Source: Lacimicrobium alkaliphilum (lineage in GTDB: Bacteria; Pseudomonadota; Gammaproteobacteria; Enterobacterales; Alteromonadaceae). Taken from it: a DNA stretch of 64,000 nucleotides. Location: assembly GCF_002591895.1 (NCBI RefSeq), contig NZ_NISX01000001.1, forward strand, positions 1 through 64,000, read 5' to 3'. Shown here piece by piece: positions 44,892 to 50,065 of the stretch. Each line of letters begins with the position of its first letter. The stretch's first letter is position 1. The notes below the pieces were generated by a model, which was not told the origin of the DNA, did no database searches, and saw nothing but the letters and a program-made list of their open reading frames with translations. Made by a program: the position numbers and the translations under genes.

Positions 44892-47800
44892 ATGAAAACC
44901 AGAATATCTTTGTTGTCGGCCGCTATACTGGCGTCCATGCAGGCAACGGCTGCTCCGGCAGACAGTTTGATCATCAGTGGCGTAGTAGATGGCCCCTTGC
45001 CCGGAGGCTTACCAAAGGCCGTTGAAATTTATGTTGCCAAAGACATTGATGATATCAGTCAATGTGGCCTTGGTTCGGCCAACAACGGTGGTGGTACCGA
45101 TGGTGAGGAGTTTACCTTCCCTTCAGGTGCTGTCAGTGCCGGTCAATATCTGTACGTGGCTTCCGAGTCTGCCGGTTTTAGTGATTTCTTTGGCTTTTCG
45201 CCCAACTACACCAGCAGTGCAGCCAACATTAATGGCGATGATGCCATTGAGCTGTTTTGTGATGGCGCTGTGGTAGATACCTTTGGTGAAACCGAAGTAG
45301 ATGGAACGGGACAGGCCTGGGAGCATCTTGATGGCTGGGCGTACCGGATAGCCGACACAGGCCCGGATGATGGGAATTTTGTTTTAGCGAACTGGCAGTT
45401 TAGCGGGCCGAATGCACTGGATGGCGAGAGTAGCAATGACTCGGCTGTGCTACCGTTTCCGCTGGCCAGTTTTACGGGGGATGGTGGTGGTTCGCCGGGC
45501 GATCCTGACCCGGTCGACCCGGATCCGGTTGAGCCAGGTGAAGGCGGCGAAGGACTGCTTTTCTCAGAATATGTTGAGGGCAGCAGTTTTAACAAGGCCA
45601 TTGAGCTGGCAAATACAACGGACGCTACGCTGGACTTAAGTGGCTATCAGGTTCTGCTGTATTCTAACAGCAATACCAATGCCGGCACTACGTTGGATCT
45701 TACCGGCTCACTGGCCGCTGGTGAGGTACTGGTTATTGCCAATTCCCAGGCAGCTGATGCGATTCAGGCCGTGGCGGATGTGATTTCCGGAGTCACTAAC
45801 TTTAACGGCAATGATGCGCTGGAACTTCGCTATAACAATACACTGGTCGACAGTATCGGTCAGGTTGGCAGCGGACAGAACTTTGGCAGCAATGTGACTC
45901 TGGTTCGCAAGGCTGATACCGCCGGGGATACGGATTCATCGGATACCTTTGTTGCCGCAGAGCAGTGGCAGGAATTTGCGTCTGATACCTTTACCTATCT
46001 GGGCAGCCACAACGGCGACGATGGTGGTGACACCCCTGTGGTTGAGTTATGGCAGTGTGGTGACCCGGCAACCCTGATCAGTCAGATTCAGGGCAGTGGT
46101 GATGTTTCGCCAGTGGCGTCTGAAAGCCACATTGTTGAAGCGGTGGTAACCGGTACCTTTACAAACCTGCAGGGCTATTTTGTTCAGGAAGAAGTCGCAG
46201 ACTGGGATAATGACGCGAATACTTCAGAAGGGGTGTTTGTCTATACCAATTCTGATCAGAATCTGCCTCAGCCGGGAACACTGGTAAGAGTGCAGGGCGA
46301 GGTGAGTGAGTTCTTTGATAAAACCCAGCTCACTGTCAGCGCTCCAGGTCTGGATTGTGGACAGGCAGATACGCCCACAATGAGCTTGTCACTGCCTTTC
46401 GCCGATGCGCAGCAGCCAGAGTCTTTAGAGGGGATGCTGGTTAGTTTTGAACACAGCCTGACGGTAACCGACAATTACAATCTGGGGCGCTATGGTGAAG
46501 TGACACTATCTAATGGCCGTACTTATATTCCGACTAACCTGCACCTGCCGGGTTCTGCAGTAGCCCAGTCTCTGGCGGAGGAAAATGCTCTCAACCGTAT
46601 TTTGCTGGACGATGGTATCAACGGTCAGAATCCCGAAACGGTGATTTATCCCACTGGTGGGCTGTCTGCATTTAATACCCTGCGTACCGGTGATCTGGTT
46701 AGTAGTCTTAGCGGCGTGCTCGATTATGGCTTTGGTGAATATCGCATTATTCCGGTTGAAGCACCGACTTTTGTGGCCAGTAACCCGAGAACACCAGCGC
46801 CGGAGATTGCCGAGGGCAACCTTAAAGTAGCCAGCCTGAATGTGCTGAACTTCTTTAATGGTGACGGTCAGGGTGGCGGCTTCCCGACACCAAGAGGTGC
46901 CGACAATTCACAAGAATATCAGCGTCAGCTGGATAAGCTGGTGTCTGCCATTCTGACCATGGATGCCGATGTTGTCGGGCTGATGGAAATTGAAAACGAT
47001 GGCTATGACCAGAACAGCGCCATCGCTCAGTTAACTGACGCACTCAATGCTCTGGCTGGCGAGTCTGTCTATGCATATGTGGATGCAGGTGGGCAGCTAG
47101 GTACTGATGCTATCGCAGTGGGTCTGCTGTATAAAACCGGTGCCGTTACGCCGGTGGGTGATGCGCGTATTCATCTGGATTCGGTCTATAACCGCCCGCC
47201 GCTGGCCCAGCGTTTCAGTAACGCCGGAGGCGGCGAACTGAGCGTTATCGTTAACCACTTTAAATCCAAAGGCGGTTGCGGCAGTGCCGATGGTCTGGAT
47301 CAGGACCAGGGCGACGGTCAGGCTTGTTTCAATGCCACTCGTGTAGCCCAGGCCCGGGCATTACTGGACTGGATAGCGACTGATGAGCAGCTCTCAAGTG
47401 AGAAAAACCATCTGGTTATTGGCGATTTAAATGCCTATGCCAAGGAAGATCCTATCCGTGCATTTACTGACAATGGCTTTACCAACCTGATCGAAGCCTA
47501 TGCCGGATCCGAGGCATACTCCTACGTGTTCAGAGGTGAAGCCGGGTATCTGGACCATGCTATTGCCAGTGACGACCTCGCCGCACAGGTGACCGATGTG
47601 GCTACCTGGCATATTAATGCCGACGAGCCACGTATTCTTGACTACAACACCGAGTACAAATCACAGCAACAGGTACTGGACTTCTATGCACCGGACAGCT
47701 ACCGCGCCTCGGATCATGACCCTGTTATCGTCACTTTGGACCTGCAGGCTGCAGAATTACAGGGTGATTTTGACGGTGATGGTGATGTGGATAGCAGCGA

Positions 47801-47942
47801 TATGAAAGGACTGATGCGGGCCATACTGACCCGACAAACCATTGATATGGCTTTCGATTTGAATGATGACGGTGTTATTAACACCCGCGACCTACAAATC
47901 ATGTACACGCTCTGTAGCCGAGCCAGCTGTGCCACTGAATAA
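44892..47942 (+). CDS. ExeM/NucH-type extracellular DNase with C-terminal dockerin
   Basis: Secreted endonuclease of 1016 residues. The signal peptide is at about 1-20, a first lamin-tail-like region at about 25-195, an Asp/Pro-rich linker (GDPDPVDPDPVEPGEGG) near 205, a second lamin-tail domain at about 223-375, an OB-fold region at about 390-640 and an exonuclease/endonuclease/phosphatase domain at about 650-955. Catalytic motifs are ASLNVLNFFNGDG, GLMEIEND, VNHFKSKGG, VIGDLNAYAKEDP and SDHDPVIV. The last about 60 residues form a type I dockerin with two calcium loops, DFDGDGDVDSSD and DLNDDGVINTRD. It is followed after 23 bases by a cohesin-like gene. Expected to degrade extracellular DNA for phosphate, nucleosides or biofilm release. 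Confidence 0.9.
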   Translation: MKTRISLLSAAILASMQATAAPADSLIISGVVDGPLPGGLPKAVEIYVAKDIDDISQCGLGSANNGGGTDGEEFTFPSGAVSAGQYLYVASESAGFSDFFGFSPNYTSSAANINGDDAIELFCDGAVVDTFGETEVDGTGQAWEHLDGWAYRIADTGPDDGNFVLANWQFSGPNALDGESSNDSAVLPFPLASFTGDGGGSPGDPDPVDPDPVEPGEGGEGLLFSEYVEGSSFNKAIELANTTDATLDLSGYQVLLYSNSNTNAGTTLDLTGSLAAGEVLVIANSQAADAIQAVADVISGVTNFNGNDALELRYNNTLVDSIGQVGSGQNFGSNVTLVRKADTAGDTDSSDTFVAAEQWQEFASDTFTYLGSHNGDDGGDTPVVELWQCGDPATLISQIQGSGDVSPVASESHIVEAVVTGTFTNLQGYFVQEEVADWDNDANTSEGVFVYTNSDQNLPQPGTLVRVQGEVSEFFDKTQLTVSAPGLDCGQADTPTMSLSLPFADAQQPESLEGMLVSFEHSLTVTDNYNLGRYGEVTLSNGRTYIPTNLHLPGSAVAQSLAEENALNRILLDDGINGQNPETVIYPTGGLSAFNTLRTGDLVSSLSGVLDYGFGEYRIIPVEAPTFVASNPRTPAPEIAEGNLKVASLNVLNFFNGDGQGGGFPTPRGADNSQEYQRQLDKLVSAILTMDADVVGLMEIENDGYDQNSAIAQLTDALNALAGESVYAYVDAGGQLGTDAIAVGLLYKTGAVTPVGDARIHLDSVYNRPPLAQRFSNAGGGELSVIVNHFKSKGGCGSADGLDQDQGDGQACFNATRVAQARALLDWIATDEQLSSEKNHLVIGDLNAYAKEDPIRAFTDNGFTNLIEAYAGSEAYSYVFRGEAGYLDHAIASDDLAAQVTDVATWHINADEPRILDYNTEYKSQQQVLDFYAPDSYRASDHDPVIVTLDLQAAELQGDFDGDGDVDSSDMKGLMRAILTRQTIDMAFDLNDDGVINTRDLQIMYTLCSRASCATE

Positions 47943-47965
47943 CAAATACTACTAAGGAAAAGACA

Positions 47966-48517
47966 ATGAAAAAACTTATTGCAATCTTAACGTTAACGCT
48001 GGGCTTTGGTGCTCAGGCAGCTCAAATTAACCTCAGTGTGGATCAGACCGATTACACCATCGGAGACGAAATCACCGTCAATCTGAGCGCTACCGACCTG
48101 GTGGATGTGGCGGCATTTGAGTTTGATTTGCTGTTCGATACCGGCAGTTTTGGACTGAGTGCGGGCGATTCTGTGGTTGCGGATAGCTCAGATCTGTCAT
48201 CGGCTATCTTATTTGAAAACTTTGCCTTTGCGGACGGTGCGGAAACGGGACTGGGTTTTGGTTTCTTCGACATTTTCTCCCTGAATGGAGAGGCGTTGAT
48301 AGCCAGCTTTACCTTAACGGCACAGGCGCTGGGTAACTTTGACTTTGCACTGGCAAACGGGGTATTCAGCGATTCTCTGTTTGATGATGTTCCGGTTAGC
48401 TTTTCAGGTAACTCGTCGGTTAATGTTACGGCCGCAGAGGTTTCAGAACCTGCGAGTCTGGCATTGTTCGGGCTGGCTCTGACCGGCTTCGTTGTGGCAC
48501 GCAGAAAGCGCAGTTAA
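47966..48517 (+). CDS. Cohesin-like domain protein with PEP-CTERM sorting signal
   Basis: A 183-residue exported protein. It has a signal peptide (about 1-18), a single beta-sandwich domain (about 19-155) with cohesin-style features (VDQTDYTIGDEITVNLSATDLVDVAAFEFDLLFDT compressed around residues 25-55, later GEALIASFTLTAQALG), and a C-terminal PEP-CTERM tail: SEPASLALFGLAL, a hydrophobic helix and a basic end (ARRKRS). PEP-CTERM proteins are processed by an exosortase and kept at the surface or in the matrix. It lies directly after a dockerin-bearing nuclease, so the natural reading is a cognate surface anchor. Cohesin assignment is by pattern, not by search. Confidence 0.78.
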   Translation: MKKLIAILTLTLGFGAQAAQINLSVDQTDYTIGDEITVNLSATDLVDVAAFEFDLLFDTGSFGLSAGDSVVADSSDLSSAILFENFAFADGAETGLGFGFFDIFSLNGEALIASFTLTAQALGNFDFALANGVFSDSLFDDVPVSFSGNSSVNVTAAEVSEPASLALFGLALTGFVVARRKRS

Positions 48518-48537
48518 ACTTCACGCGCACGCGCAAG

Positions 48538-48560
48538 AGCCCTGCTTCGGCGGGGCTTTT
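48538..48560 (+). terminator. Terminator after the cohesin gene
   Basis: An 8-bp stem (AGCCCTGC/GCGGGGCT, with one G-T pair) has a stable TTCG loop and is followed by TTT. It ends the nuclease-cohesin transcript before the second nuclease gene. Confidence 0.88.
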
Positions 48561-48589
48561 GTGCATCTGTTATTACTAGTGGATTTTAA

Positions 48590-50065
48590 ATGAACCAACA
48601 ACTTCGATACCTCTTCATCATTTTTTTTCTGGCTGTGTCAGCGCTGCAGGCAGGTTGTGCAGAACAATCAGATGTAACGCTTTCAGAGCCTGTTGTGCTG
48701 TCGCTACCTTTTAGCAGTTACGAGCAGGTTGCAGCATTAGACGGAAAACACGTGACGTTTAATCAGCCATTGACAGTGATAGACAGTTACAACCTGCATC
48801 GTTTTGGAGAGCTGACACTTTCTCATCAACGGCAGTTCGTTCCGACCAACCTATACTTGCCTGGCTCTTCTCAGGCGGCAGCACTGGAACAGCATAACCA
48901 ATTGAACCGTATCCGGTTGCTGGATCACAGTGATCAGGAATATCCTGAAAAAATACCTTATCCAGGCGAAGCGTTAAGTGCGAATAATACAGTGCGTGTT
49001 GGTGATCAGGTGGTTTCTGTTACTGGTGTTTTGCAGCTATCAGACCAGAAAATTACTCTGCGCCCTGTTGAACAGCCTGAATTTATAGCAGCCAATCCAC
49101 GCCTGCAGAGGCCGGAGTTGCGCAGCGGAAATCTTCGTATCGCCAGCCTTAATCTGCTCAACCTGTTTAACGGTGACGGTCAGGGCGGTGATTTCCCTAC
49201 CCCCAGAGGGGCCGATAATCCTGAGGAATATCAGCGTCAGTTAGCCAAGTTAGTAGCCTCTGTTGCGGCGATGGATGCTGATATTATCGGACTTATGGAA
49301 CTGGAGAACGATGGTTTTGGCCAGTTCAGTACTATCGCCCAGTTCACTGAGGCATTAAATCATGCTGTTGGTGAAAACCGTTATGCTTTTGTTGATGCCG
49401 GAGCACCATTGGGTGATGACGTGATTGCGGTGGGTTTGTTGTATCGCCCACAAGTGGTTTCGCTGATGTCCACAGCAAAAATTAGCCCGGATAAGGTTTT
49501 TGACCGGCCACCACTGGCTCAGGTATTTCAGCATAAGGCTTCGGGAGAGTCACTCACTGTAGTGGTCAACCATTTTAAATCCAAGGGCAGTTGCCATAGG
49601 GCTGAGGGACTGAATCAGGACCAGAATGATGGACAGGGCTGCTTCAATGCAAAACGCCAGCTACAGACTAACCGATTGATAACATGGCTGGATACTGAGC
49701 CAGATCTCAACAGCAACGGAAAGCAACTGGTGATGGGTGATTTGAATGCCTATGCCATGGAAGACCCCATCCGCGCGTTTGCGGCTCATGGATATAAGGA
49801 TTTGGTGGGGCATTTTGCCGGTGACAAAGCCTATAGCTATGTTTATAGAGGTCAGTCCGGCTACATTGACCATGCGCTGGCCAGTCGACAACTATTCACA
49901 AAAGTAATCGATGCGGCCGCTTGGCATAGCAATGCCGATGAACCCCGGGCACTGGATTACAACACTGAGAATAAAACCGCTGGGCAGTCTCAGTCGCTCT
50001 ATGCAAAAGACGGCTACAGAGCGTCGGACCATGACCCCGTGCTAATCAGCATTAAATTTGATTAA
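48590..50065 (+). CDS. ExeM-like endonuclease lipoprotein, paralogue of the dockerin nuclease
   Basis: A 491-residue lipoprotein. The N-terminal hydrophobic stretch ends in LQAGC (Cys22 probably lipidated, followed by Ala, compatible with outer-membrane sorting). It then follows the large nuclease closely: OB-like region (about 35-185), then the nuclease domain with ASLNLLNLFNGDG, GLMELEND, VNHFKSKGS, VMGDLNAYAMEDP and SDHDPVLI, all catalytic motifs kept. It lacks the lamin-tail domains and the dockerin. It is clearly a tandem paralogue that anchors by lipid instead. It may act on oligonucleotides at the cell surface (inference). Confidence 0.88.
   Translation: MNQQLRYLFIIFFLAVSALQAGCAEQSDVTLSEPVVLSLPFSSYEQVAALDGKHVTFNQPLTVIDSYNLHRFGELTLSHQRQFVPTNLYLPGSSQAAALEQHNQLNRIRLLDHSDQEYPEKIPYPGEALSANNTVRVGDQVVSVTGVLQLSDQKITLRPVEQPEFIAANPRLQRPELRSGNLRIASLNLLNLFNGDGQGGDFPTPRGADNPEEYQRQLAKLVASVAAMDADIIGLMELENDGFGQFSTIAQFTEALNHAVGENRYAFVDAGAPLGDDVIAVGLLYRPQVVSLMSTAKISPDKVFDRPPLAQVFQHKASGESLTVVVNHFKSKGSCHRAEGLNQDQNDGQGCFNAKRQLQTNRLITWLDTEPDLNSNGKQLVMGDLNAYAMEDPIRAFAAHGYKDLVGHFAGDKAYSYVYRGQSGYIDHALASRQLFTKVIDAAAWHSNADEPRALDYNTENKTAGQSQSLYAKDGYRASDHDPVLISIKFD

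Follow-up and report, generated by a model that had tools for sequence, protein, structure and literature searches.

We analyzed a 64,000-nucleotide stretch of Lacimicrobium alkaliphilum DNA (contig NZ_NISX01000001.1, positions 1 to 64,000; hereafter, the window) and found on its + strand a two-gene unit, in which an open reading frame (ORF) of 1016 amino acids for a secreted nuclease ending in a dockerin (44892-47942) is followed, after a gap of 23 bases, by a small ORF of 183 amino acids (47966-48517), whose product carries a predicted cohesin domain and a PEP-CTERM tail. The nuclease and the small protein probably constitute a dedicated enzyme-plus-anchor pair, in which a cohesin sorted by exosortase A would hold the dockerin enzyme of the neighboring gene at the cell surface or in the exopolysaccharide. 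The larger finding goes beyond this single nuclease, as the same kind of gene pair is found again with many further enzymes. The evidence comprises the domain identities, the predicted cohesin fold, the recurrent adjacency of the two genes over different enzymes, the co-diversification of the two domains, and their co-occurrence with exosortase. The features of the unit are the following:

44892..47942, + strand: ExeM/NucH-family secreted nuclease with lamin-tail domains (LTD), an exonuclease-endonuclease-phosphatase (EEP) domain, and a C-terminal type I dockerin (NF033681, PF03372, PF00932, PF00404)
45552..45866, + strand: best-scoring lamin tail domain, residues 221-325 (PF00932; a second stretch is counted without a position)
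46134..47744, + strand: ExeM/NucH nuclease core, complete (NF033681 profile positions 1-546)
47763..47939, + strand: C-terminal type I dockerin with two calcium-type loops, then a cysteine-pair tail (PF00404, residues 958-1004; family profile, 94.4 bits)
47966..48517, + strand: 183-residue single-cohesin PEP-CTERM protein with signal peptide, ectodomain, and tail, the proposed exosortase-sorted docking partner
48020..48442, + strand: ectodomain, predicted cohesin-type beta-sandwich (72-row profile against solved structures; predicted model; Foldseek and VIA-align)
48440..48514, + strand: PEP-CTERM tail with SEP motif, hydrophobic helix, and basic end (TIGR02595, PF07589)

Domains of the nuclease and of the small protein

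The nuclease belongs to the ExeM/NucH family: it scored 657.8 bits with NF033681 (cut-off 300), 44.7 bits with PF03372, and 77.2 bits with the LTD profile PF00932 (cut-off 34.3), and it contains the EEP motifs LMEIEND, NHFKSKG, GDLNAY, and SDHDPV. Its signal peptide was read from the sequence. Dockerin_1 (PF00404) matched with 29.6 bits at a cut-off of 22.9, which agrees with a preliminary description of the window that had placed a type I dockerin at the C terminus, and solved dockerins were among the matches. An identity as ExeM-GG (NF033680) was rejected, because the score of 470.7 bits falls below the cut-off of 1300 and the C terminus is a dockerin, with no GlyGly-CTERM tail. Past the second dockerin loop, a pair of cysteines (47910-47939) is invariant in 24 aligned dockerins, reading LCSRASCATE in the window and LCTRxRCA in the family consensus. 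This pair is possibly a disulfide clasp and could serve as a useful signature.

The preliminary description had also assigned to the small protein a signal peptide, one cohesin-like sandwich, and a PEP-CTERM tail, and each of these elements was recovered. The tail scored 23.8 bits with TIGR02595 (cut-off 16) and 24.1 bits with PF07589 (cut-off 20.7), its motif being SEP rather than PEP. Among 72 members of the protein family, a hydrophobic and basic tail is present in 71 and a PEP-like motif, defined by a loose pattern, in 62; TIGR02595 matches 38 of the 72 at E values up to 0.1. The cohesin gene of one M43 protease pair (G015, L037:4606-5085; G, C, and L are our handles for genomes, contigs, and loci) lacks the hydrophobic PEP-CTERM helix and stops just past the PEP motif.

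Taken alone, the 183-residue protein scored 19.9 bits with the Pfam cohesin profile PF00963 (E = 9e-4), below the cut-off of 24.1; thus, the cohesin call needed a family profile compared with solved structures together with a predicted fold. A phmmer search of the single protein against solved structures gave no meaningful match. We built the profile from the ectodomains of the 72 family members, which adjoin genes with dockerin loops, after removal of signal and tail. It matched 3l8q (E = 1.1e-14), 6kg8 (1.4e-9), and 2jh2 (5.1e-6), and the top of the ranking consists of cohesins, from scaffoldins of cellulosomes and from enzymes of Clostridium perfringens; antibodies appear among the weakest of the 41 hits obtained up to E = 1. 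Because the profile holds no known cohesin, the match is not circular. PF00963 itself matches 40 of the 72 ectodomains at E values up to 0.1, and any other family matches at most three. As regards profile searches, the earlier domain calls stood as they were for the dockerin, while the window cohesin stayed under the Pfam cut-off on its own and was found through the 72-row profile.

The ectodomain model, predicted from an input of three sequences, has a pLDDT (predicted local distance difference test) of 70.8 and a pTM (predicted template modeling score) of 0.67. Among the Foldseek matches listed, all 50 rows are cohesins or cohesin-bearing complexes, the best being 6kgf (E = 3.6e-8), and VIA-align superposed the model on 6kgc with Z = 14.1 and a root mean square deviation of 2.3 over 126 residues. 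Judged by profile and predicted model, the ectodomain is a cohesin-type domain.

Pairing of cohesin and dockerin genes across genomes

The survey covered 147 genomes: 89 from the family to which the window belongs, counting its own genome, and 58 from its order. Profile A1, which covers the cohesin protein including its PEP-CTERM tail, was built without L029, L031, and L032 (match to the PEP-CTERM tail only) and L018 (truncated tail). Among the matches listed, it gave 75 near-full-length places (E up to 2.2e-9) in 45 genomes, and 70 of these adjoin a gene with dockerin loops. Sixty-four of the 70 lie beside a match to the dockerin profile A2, and six more beside a dockerin-loop gene that passes Pfam Dockerin_1 in four cases (G015, G021, G025:C9, and G062) and has its loops by pattern only in two (G042 and G011:C1). 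As a control, none of the 70 tail-only PEP-CTERM matches among those listed was found within 3 kb of a dockerin match. The survey and this control led us to reject chance neighborhood.

Profile A2 was made from dockerins beside cohesins, leaving out L010 and L016 (internal dockerin) and L033 (divergent), and gave 88 dockerin matches in 52 genomes. An adjacent cohesin gene was found for 66 of the 88 (68 once the loci were read, with L132 and L133 added), a share that is inflated in favor of the pairing because A2 was built from paired dockerins. In 55 of the 66 pairs, the cohesin gene follows directly on the same strand, no more than 241 bases downstream; in three, where a further domain comes after the dockerin, it lies within 755 bases; and in eight, it is next door in another order. 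We therefore redid the count with Pfam Dockerin_1 (PF00404), which was not built from this family. The share fell from 66 of 88 to 37 of 57, the 57 places lying in 43 genomes and the 37 pairs comprising 35 with the cohesin gene downstream within 797 bases and two with it next door. Six Pfam dockerins that the family profile missed (G039:C7:545839, G048:C7:292, G054:C3:354871, G088:C1:158503, G101:C1:317220, and G031:C128) have no recognized cohesin neighbor.

The window's own genome (G000) holds three pairs in all, the two others at G000:C45:178940-179749 and C45:211974-212730. The partner in the first of these (L134, G000:C45:173000-184000) is a 1595-residue PPC/PKD repeat protein, and that in the second (L135, G000:C45:207000-217000) is a 584-residue protein of unknown type with relatives in five other pairs. 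Another species of the window's genus (G001) has exosortase, with dockerin and cohesin both absent.

The assignment of the small protein to an exosortase context, made in the preliminary description, is matched by XrtA (exosortase A) encoded in its own genome (TIGR03109, 340.3 bits, cut-off 208, at G000:C3), among six XrtA-system genes. Exosortase (PF09721) is present in 88 of the 147 genomes. In counts that, like those for adjacency, ignore shared ancestry, the A1 cohesin occurs among the matches listed in 45 of the 88 exosortase genomes versus none of the 59 others, and within the family in 45 of 71 versus 0 of 18. Because A1 contains the PEP-CTERM tail, we repeated the comparison with a tail-free profile, A5, built from paired members. 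It gave 76 places in 46 of the 147 genomes, all with exosortase (46/88 versus 0/59). A2 dockerins behave similarly (50/88 versus 2/59).

Four A5 places lie outside the 72: G054, a further pair found by a profile built without it, whose dockerin was read by eye; G104; and G011:C7 and G037, which have no dockerin neighbor. In G104 (L246, G104:C76), the protein (746 residues, truncated at the end of the contig) has its cohesin-like domain near the N terminus, and no neighboring dockerin gene was seen. Over 398 genomes drawn across the phylum, A5 matched 11, of which eight belong to the same family and three to other families of the class. Two of these three adjoin a dockerin-loop gene, L198 by profile (31.2 bits) and L200 by reading of the sequence; no such gene was seen alongside the third, L201. 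The L200 protein, which also has a PEP-CTERM tail, clears the Pfam cohesin cut-off by itself with 56.6 bits.

Partner enzymes and matched domains

With the dockerin masked, 69 partner proteins fell into 19 BLAST clusters, across which the dockerin and the cohesin are the constant parts; as two M4 proteases fall in separate clusters, the number 19 does not stand for that many unrelated families. ExeM-type nucleases account for 30 of the 69, followed by seven with M9 collagenases, six of unknown type, five with M43 proteases, and five large repeat proteins (PPC/PKD), while the smaller groups and singles include two porphyranases, a lambda-carrageenase, a glucuronyl esterase, and the two M4 proteases (the Pfam scan covered part of the cluster members). 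Dockerin ExeM genes thus do occur with a cohesin neighbor outside the window, and some also exist without one (for example, L114, L116, L119, L121, L123, and L125). The cohesin gene is downstream in 65 of the 72 pairs and upstream in seven. All four enzymes whose dockerin falls within their first 100 residues (L132, L149, L150, and L173) have the cohesin gene upstream, next to this N-terminal dockerin.

The dockerin and cohesin of a pair have been co-inherited as matched partners, as shown by the correlation of their distances in 69 of the 72 pairs (L137, L144, and L182, with no family-profile dockerin match, were left out). The correlation was 0.499, and shuffling of partners within the 21 multi-pair genomes gave a mean of 0.195 (standard deviation 0.060, maximum 0.423), so that none of 5000 shuffles reached the observed value. 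Between different clusters and genomes, the correlation was 0.272 as compared to 0.097 (standard deviation 0.053), a value reached in one of 5000. Linkage alone could give congruent distances; hence, co-diversification is no proof of binding. The two genes might then be linked without interaction of their products, being co-regulated or moving together, with the cohesin domain binding something else, and the 20 of 57 Pfam dockerins that have no recognized cohesin neighbor would fit such a case. We consider it highly improbable, as the enzyme varies over the 19 clusters and yet the dockerin and cohesin, known binders in cellulosomes, persist, and the tail-only PEP-CTERM matches of the control stayed away from dockerins.

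Two dockerin enzyme genes flank a single cohesin gene in each of L151 and L152, and to judge from this gene order, one socket may serve two enzymes. These loci and the three pairs of the window's genome would also be expected of a small cellulosome, in which cohesin proteins would gather several dockerin enzymes into one complex at the surface. There is very little to recommend this explanation, given that the anchors have about 160-245 residues and one cohesin match each, that partners match within genomes in the shuffle test, and that no carbohydrate-binding module was found by Pfam in the 183-residue protein or among the 15 families matched by the 72 ectodomains. For the window itself, cellulosome membership was rejected, because the neighbor, at 183 residues, has a single cohesin domain and is no scaffoldin with several.

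We also surveyed the tails of ExeM relatives, taking one locus per genome from the 30 best-scoring of 92 genomes and reading dockerin ends by eye. Eighteen of the 30 end in a dockerin and 12 do not; all 18 of the former are in exosortase genomes, and the latter split into six with and six without exosortase. The dockerin-less relatives often end in a PPC-like stretch, as read from their tails (L213, L217, L218, L219, L223, L230, and L234), and the C-terminal part of ExeM seems, from such readings, to have been swapped between lineages.

The 12 dockerin-less relatives imply that this nuclease family needs no dockerin for export, which bears on a further explanation, namely that the cohesin is an export partner or holding factor. 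During secretion it would bind the dockerin within the envelope, either retaining the enzyme at the inner membrane or keeping it inactive, and cleavage of the tail by exosortase would then set the complex free; the pair would be real, but its role would be transit or control and not retention outside. One-to-one gene pairing fits a dedicated partner of this kind. In a published model, as far as the source is available to us, the PEP-CTERM tail keeps the protein in the inner membrane until it is cleaved (PMC12188702), and Shewanella ExeM is described, in the available part of another, as almost solely in the inner membrane fraction (PMC6085458). We nevertheless regard this role as unlikely, since besides the dispensable dockerin, the cargo includes enzymes for extracellular polymers (porphyran and carrageenan), which suits a role outside.

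Proposed mechanism and related systems

We favor an anchoring role of the window's pair, which would operate as follows. The nuclease would be exported, and its C-terminal calcium-loop dockerin would bind, in a calcium-dependent manner, the single cohesin domain of the next gene's product. Exosortase A would cleave the PEP-CTERM tail while sorting the cohesin protein outside or into the exopolysaccharide. The benefit to the cell would be a nuclease that acts on DNA close by and does not diffuse away. The same design would apply to other secreted hydrolases in Alteromonadaceae, usually with one cohesin gene per dockerin gene. More broadly, we lean toward a modular display that replaces the scaffold in Alteromonadaceae and, sporadically, in other gammaproteobacteria: exosortase A would plant single cohesins, each specifically capturing the hydrolase of the adjacent gene (DNase, protease, porphyranase, carrageenase, and others), as a distributed, one-enzyme-one-socket Gram-negative counterpart of the cellulosome with many orthogonal pairs.

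Several observations weigh against anchoring by a matched cohesin. The fold model was built on three sequences only, a full-length model (pLDDT 39.6) was discarded, and unrelated immunoglobulin-like domains, the first non-cohesin fold, reach a VIA-align Z of 11.1. Four of the 75 A1 places have no dockerin neighbor and one is at a contig end; four weaker near-full-length A1 matches (G033, G018 twice, and G002; E = 1.8e-7 to 3.5e-6), which were not counted, are likewise not near a dockerin match. No recognized cohesin neighbor was found for 20 of the 88 family dockerins, nor for 20 of the 57 Pfam dockerins; the former 20 include G081, left unread (an 82-residue open frame), and G018, with about 600 bases past the gene to the contig end. 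At the cut-offs used, 11 of the 52 dockerin genomes have no cohesin, two of them (G020 and G078) being without exosortase, and the genomes with Pfam dockerins comprise 42 with exosortase and one without (G031). L146, L147, and L148 have a C-terminal dockerin and an upstream cohesin gene, contrary to the rule of gene order. Finally, the final place of PEP-CTERM proteins is unsettled in the literature, as far as the available part of one source goes (PMC12188702). Neighborless dockerin enzymes either have cohesins too divergent to be seen or use the dockerin otherwise; in G032, G101, and G125, the neighbor of the dockerin is a PEP-CTERM protein with no cohesin by Pfam.

Single cohesins are carried by ScaE and OlpA, and the cohesins of OlpA and OlpC are among the fold matches of the window's ectodomain (3ul4 and 4dh2). 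Like the anchoring scaffoldins of cellulosomes, the small protein is a proposed surface protein whose cohesin would be available to a secreted partner with a dockerin and which would be fixed by a sorting or binding part. In cellulosome bacteria, according to the part of the source available to us, cohesin proteins are fixed at the surface by sortase (ScaE of Ruminococcus flavefaciens) or by surface-layer homology (SLH) modules (Clostridium thermocellum) (PMC12484212). In contrast, the window pair belongs to a Gram-negative host, and exosortase with PEP-CTERM would replace sortase or SLH; in pairs of this type, the cohesin and enzyme genes are adjacent, and the cargo comprises DNase, proteases, and marine-polysaccharide enzymes, much of it non-cellulolytic. 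The non-cellulosomal cohesins of C. perfringens glycoside hydrolases and Archaeoglobus fulgidus are also strong fold matches (2jh2, 2w1n, 2vo8, and 2xdh); those of C. perfringens are, by their entry titles, modules of enzymes, unlike the separate window cohesin. In the portions available of the literature on non-cellulosomal cohesins, we found no case of a single cohesin that is sorted and whose gene adjoins that of its cargo.

ExeM of Shewanella oneidensis and Xds of Vibrio cholerae belong to the same nuclease family as the window's enzyme, with LTD and EEP domains. As far as the accessible part of one report extends, Shewanella ExeM requires calcium, plays a part in biofilm, is presumed to act on DNA close to the cell, and has a hydrophobic GlyGly-CTERM tail of its own (PMC6085458). 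That tail is tied to rhombosortase, whereas the window nuclease ends in a dockerin and has a separate partner with a sorting tail. By analogy, the dockerin-cohesin pair may be a second solution to the need of ExeM to stay near the cell. The small protein bears the tail of the PEP-CTERM/exosortase (XrtA) system, as its genome bears the genes. Published roles of that system, in partly available sources, are floc formation, motility, and biofilm (PMC12188702 among them), and docking of a separate secreted enzyme by a PEP-CTERM protein was not found in the available portions of the literature searched.

Our literature search returned no publication that joins dockerin with PEP-CTERM or dockerin and cohesin with an extracellular nuclease. 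For dockerin or cohesin with exosortase, it gave an archaeal review alone, which treats them apart in the part available; for dockerin, cohesin, and Alteromonas, it gave, in the parts available, metagenome counts, engineered vesicles, or mere reference. This suggests that, while cohesin-based anchoring is known, the exosortase-sorted single-cohesin version beside its cargo gene is new, not being found in the literature searched. The function of cohesins outside cellulosomes is called unknown in the accessible part of a review (PMC5244752). If true, anchoring would give a testable function both to non-cellulosomal cohesins and to one group of PEP-CTERM proteins. It could then also account for the retention of nucleases and of enzymes that degrade polymers at the cells of these bacteria, and would supply dozens of natural cohesin-dockerin pairs for surface-display engineering.

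Elements downstream of the pair

The preliminary description had put the second gene 23 bases after the first and ahead of a terminator, and these coordinates proved exact. The downstream element is the following:

48531-48564, + strand: intrinsic-terminator-like stem-loop, 3' of the two-gene unit, with a 15-pair stem and the tail ATCTGTTATT (consensus match only)

Over the window, five terminator-like sites were seen as compared to 6.0 expected from shuffles, that is, with no excess. Directly past the stem-loop, an ExeM paralogue at 48590-50065 lacks both LTD and dockerin and shares 261 of 470 aligned residues with the dockerin nuclease. It starts like a lipoprotein, with LQAGC, which we take to be a lipobox. 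The sole ExeM found in G001 is a 489-residue form resembling this paralogue, and a similar paralogue gene occupies the same place in G002 (L047).

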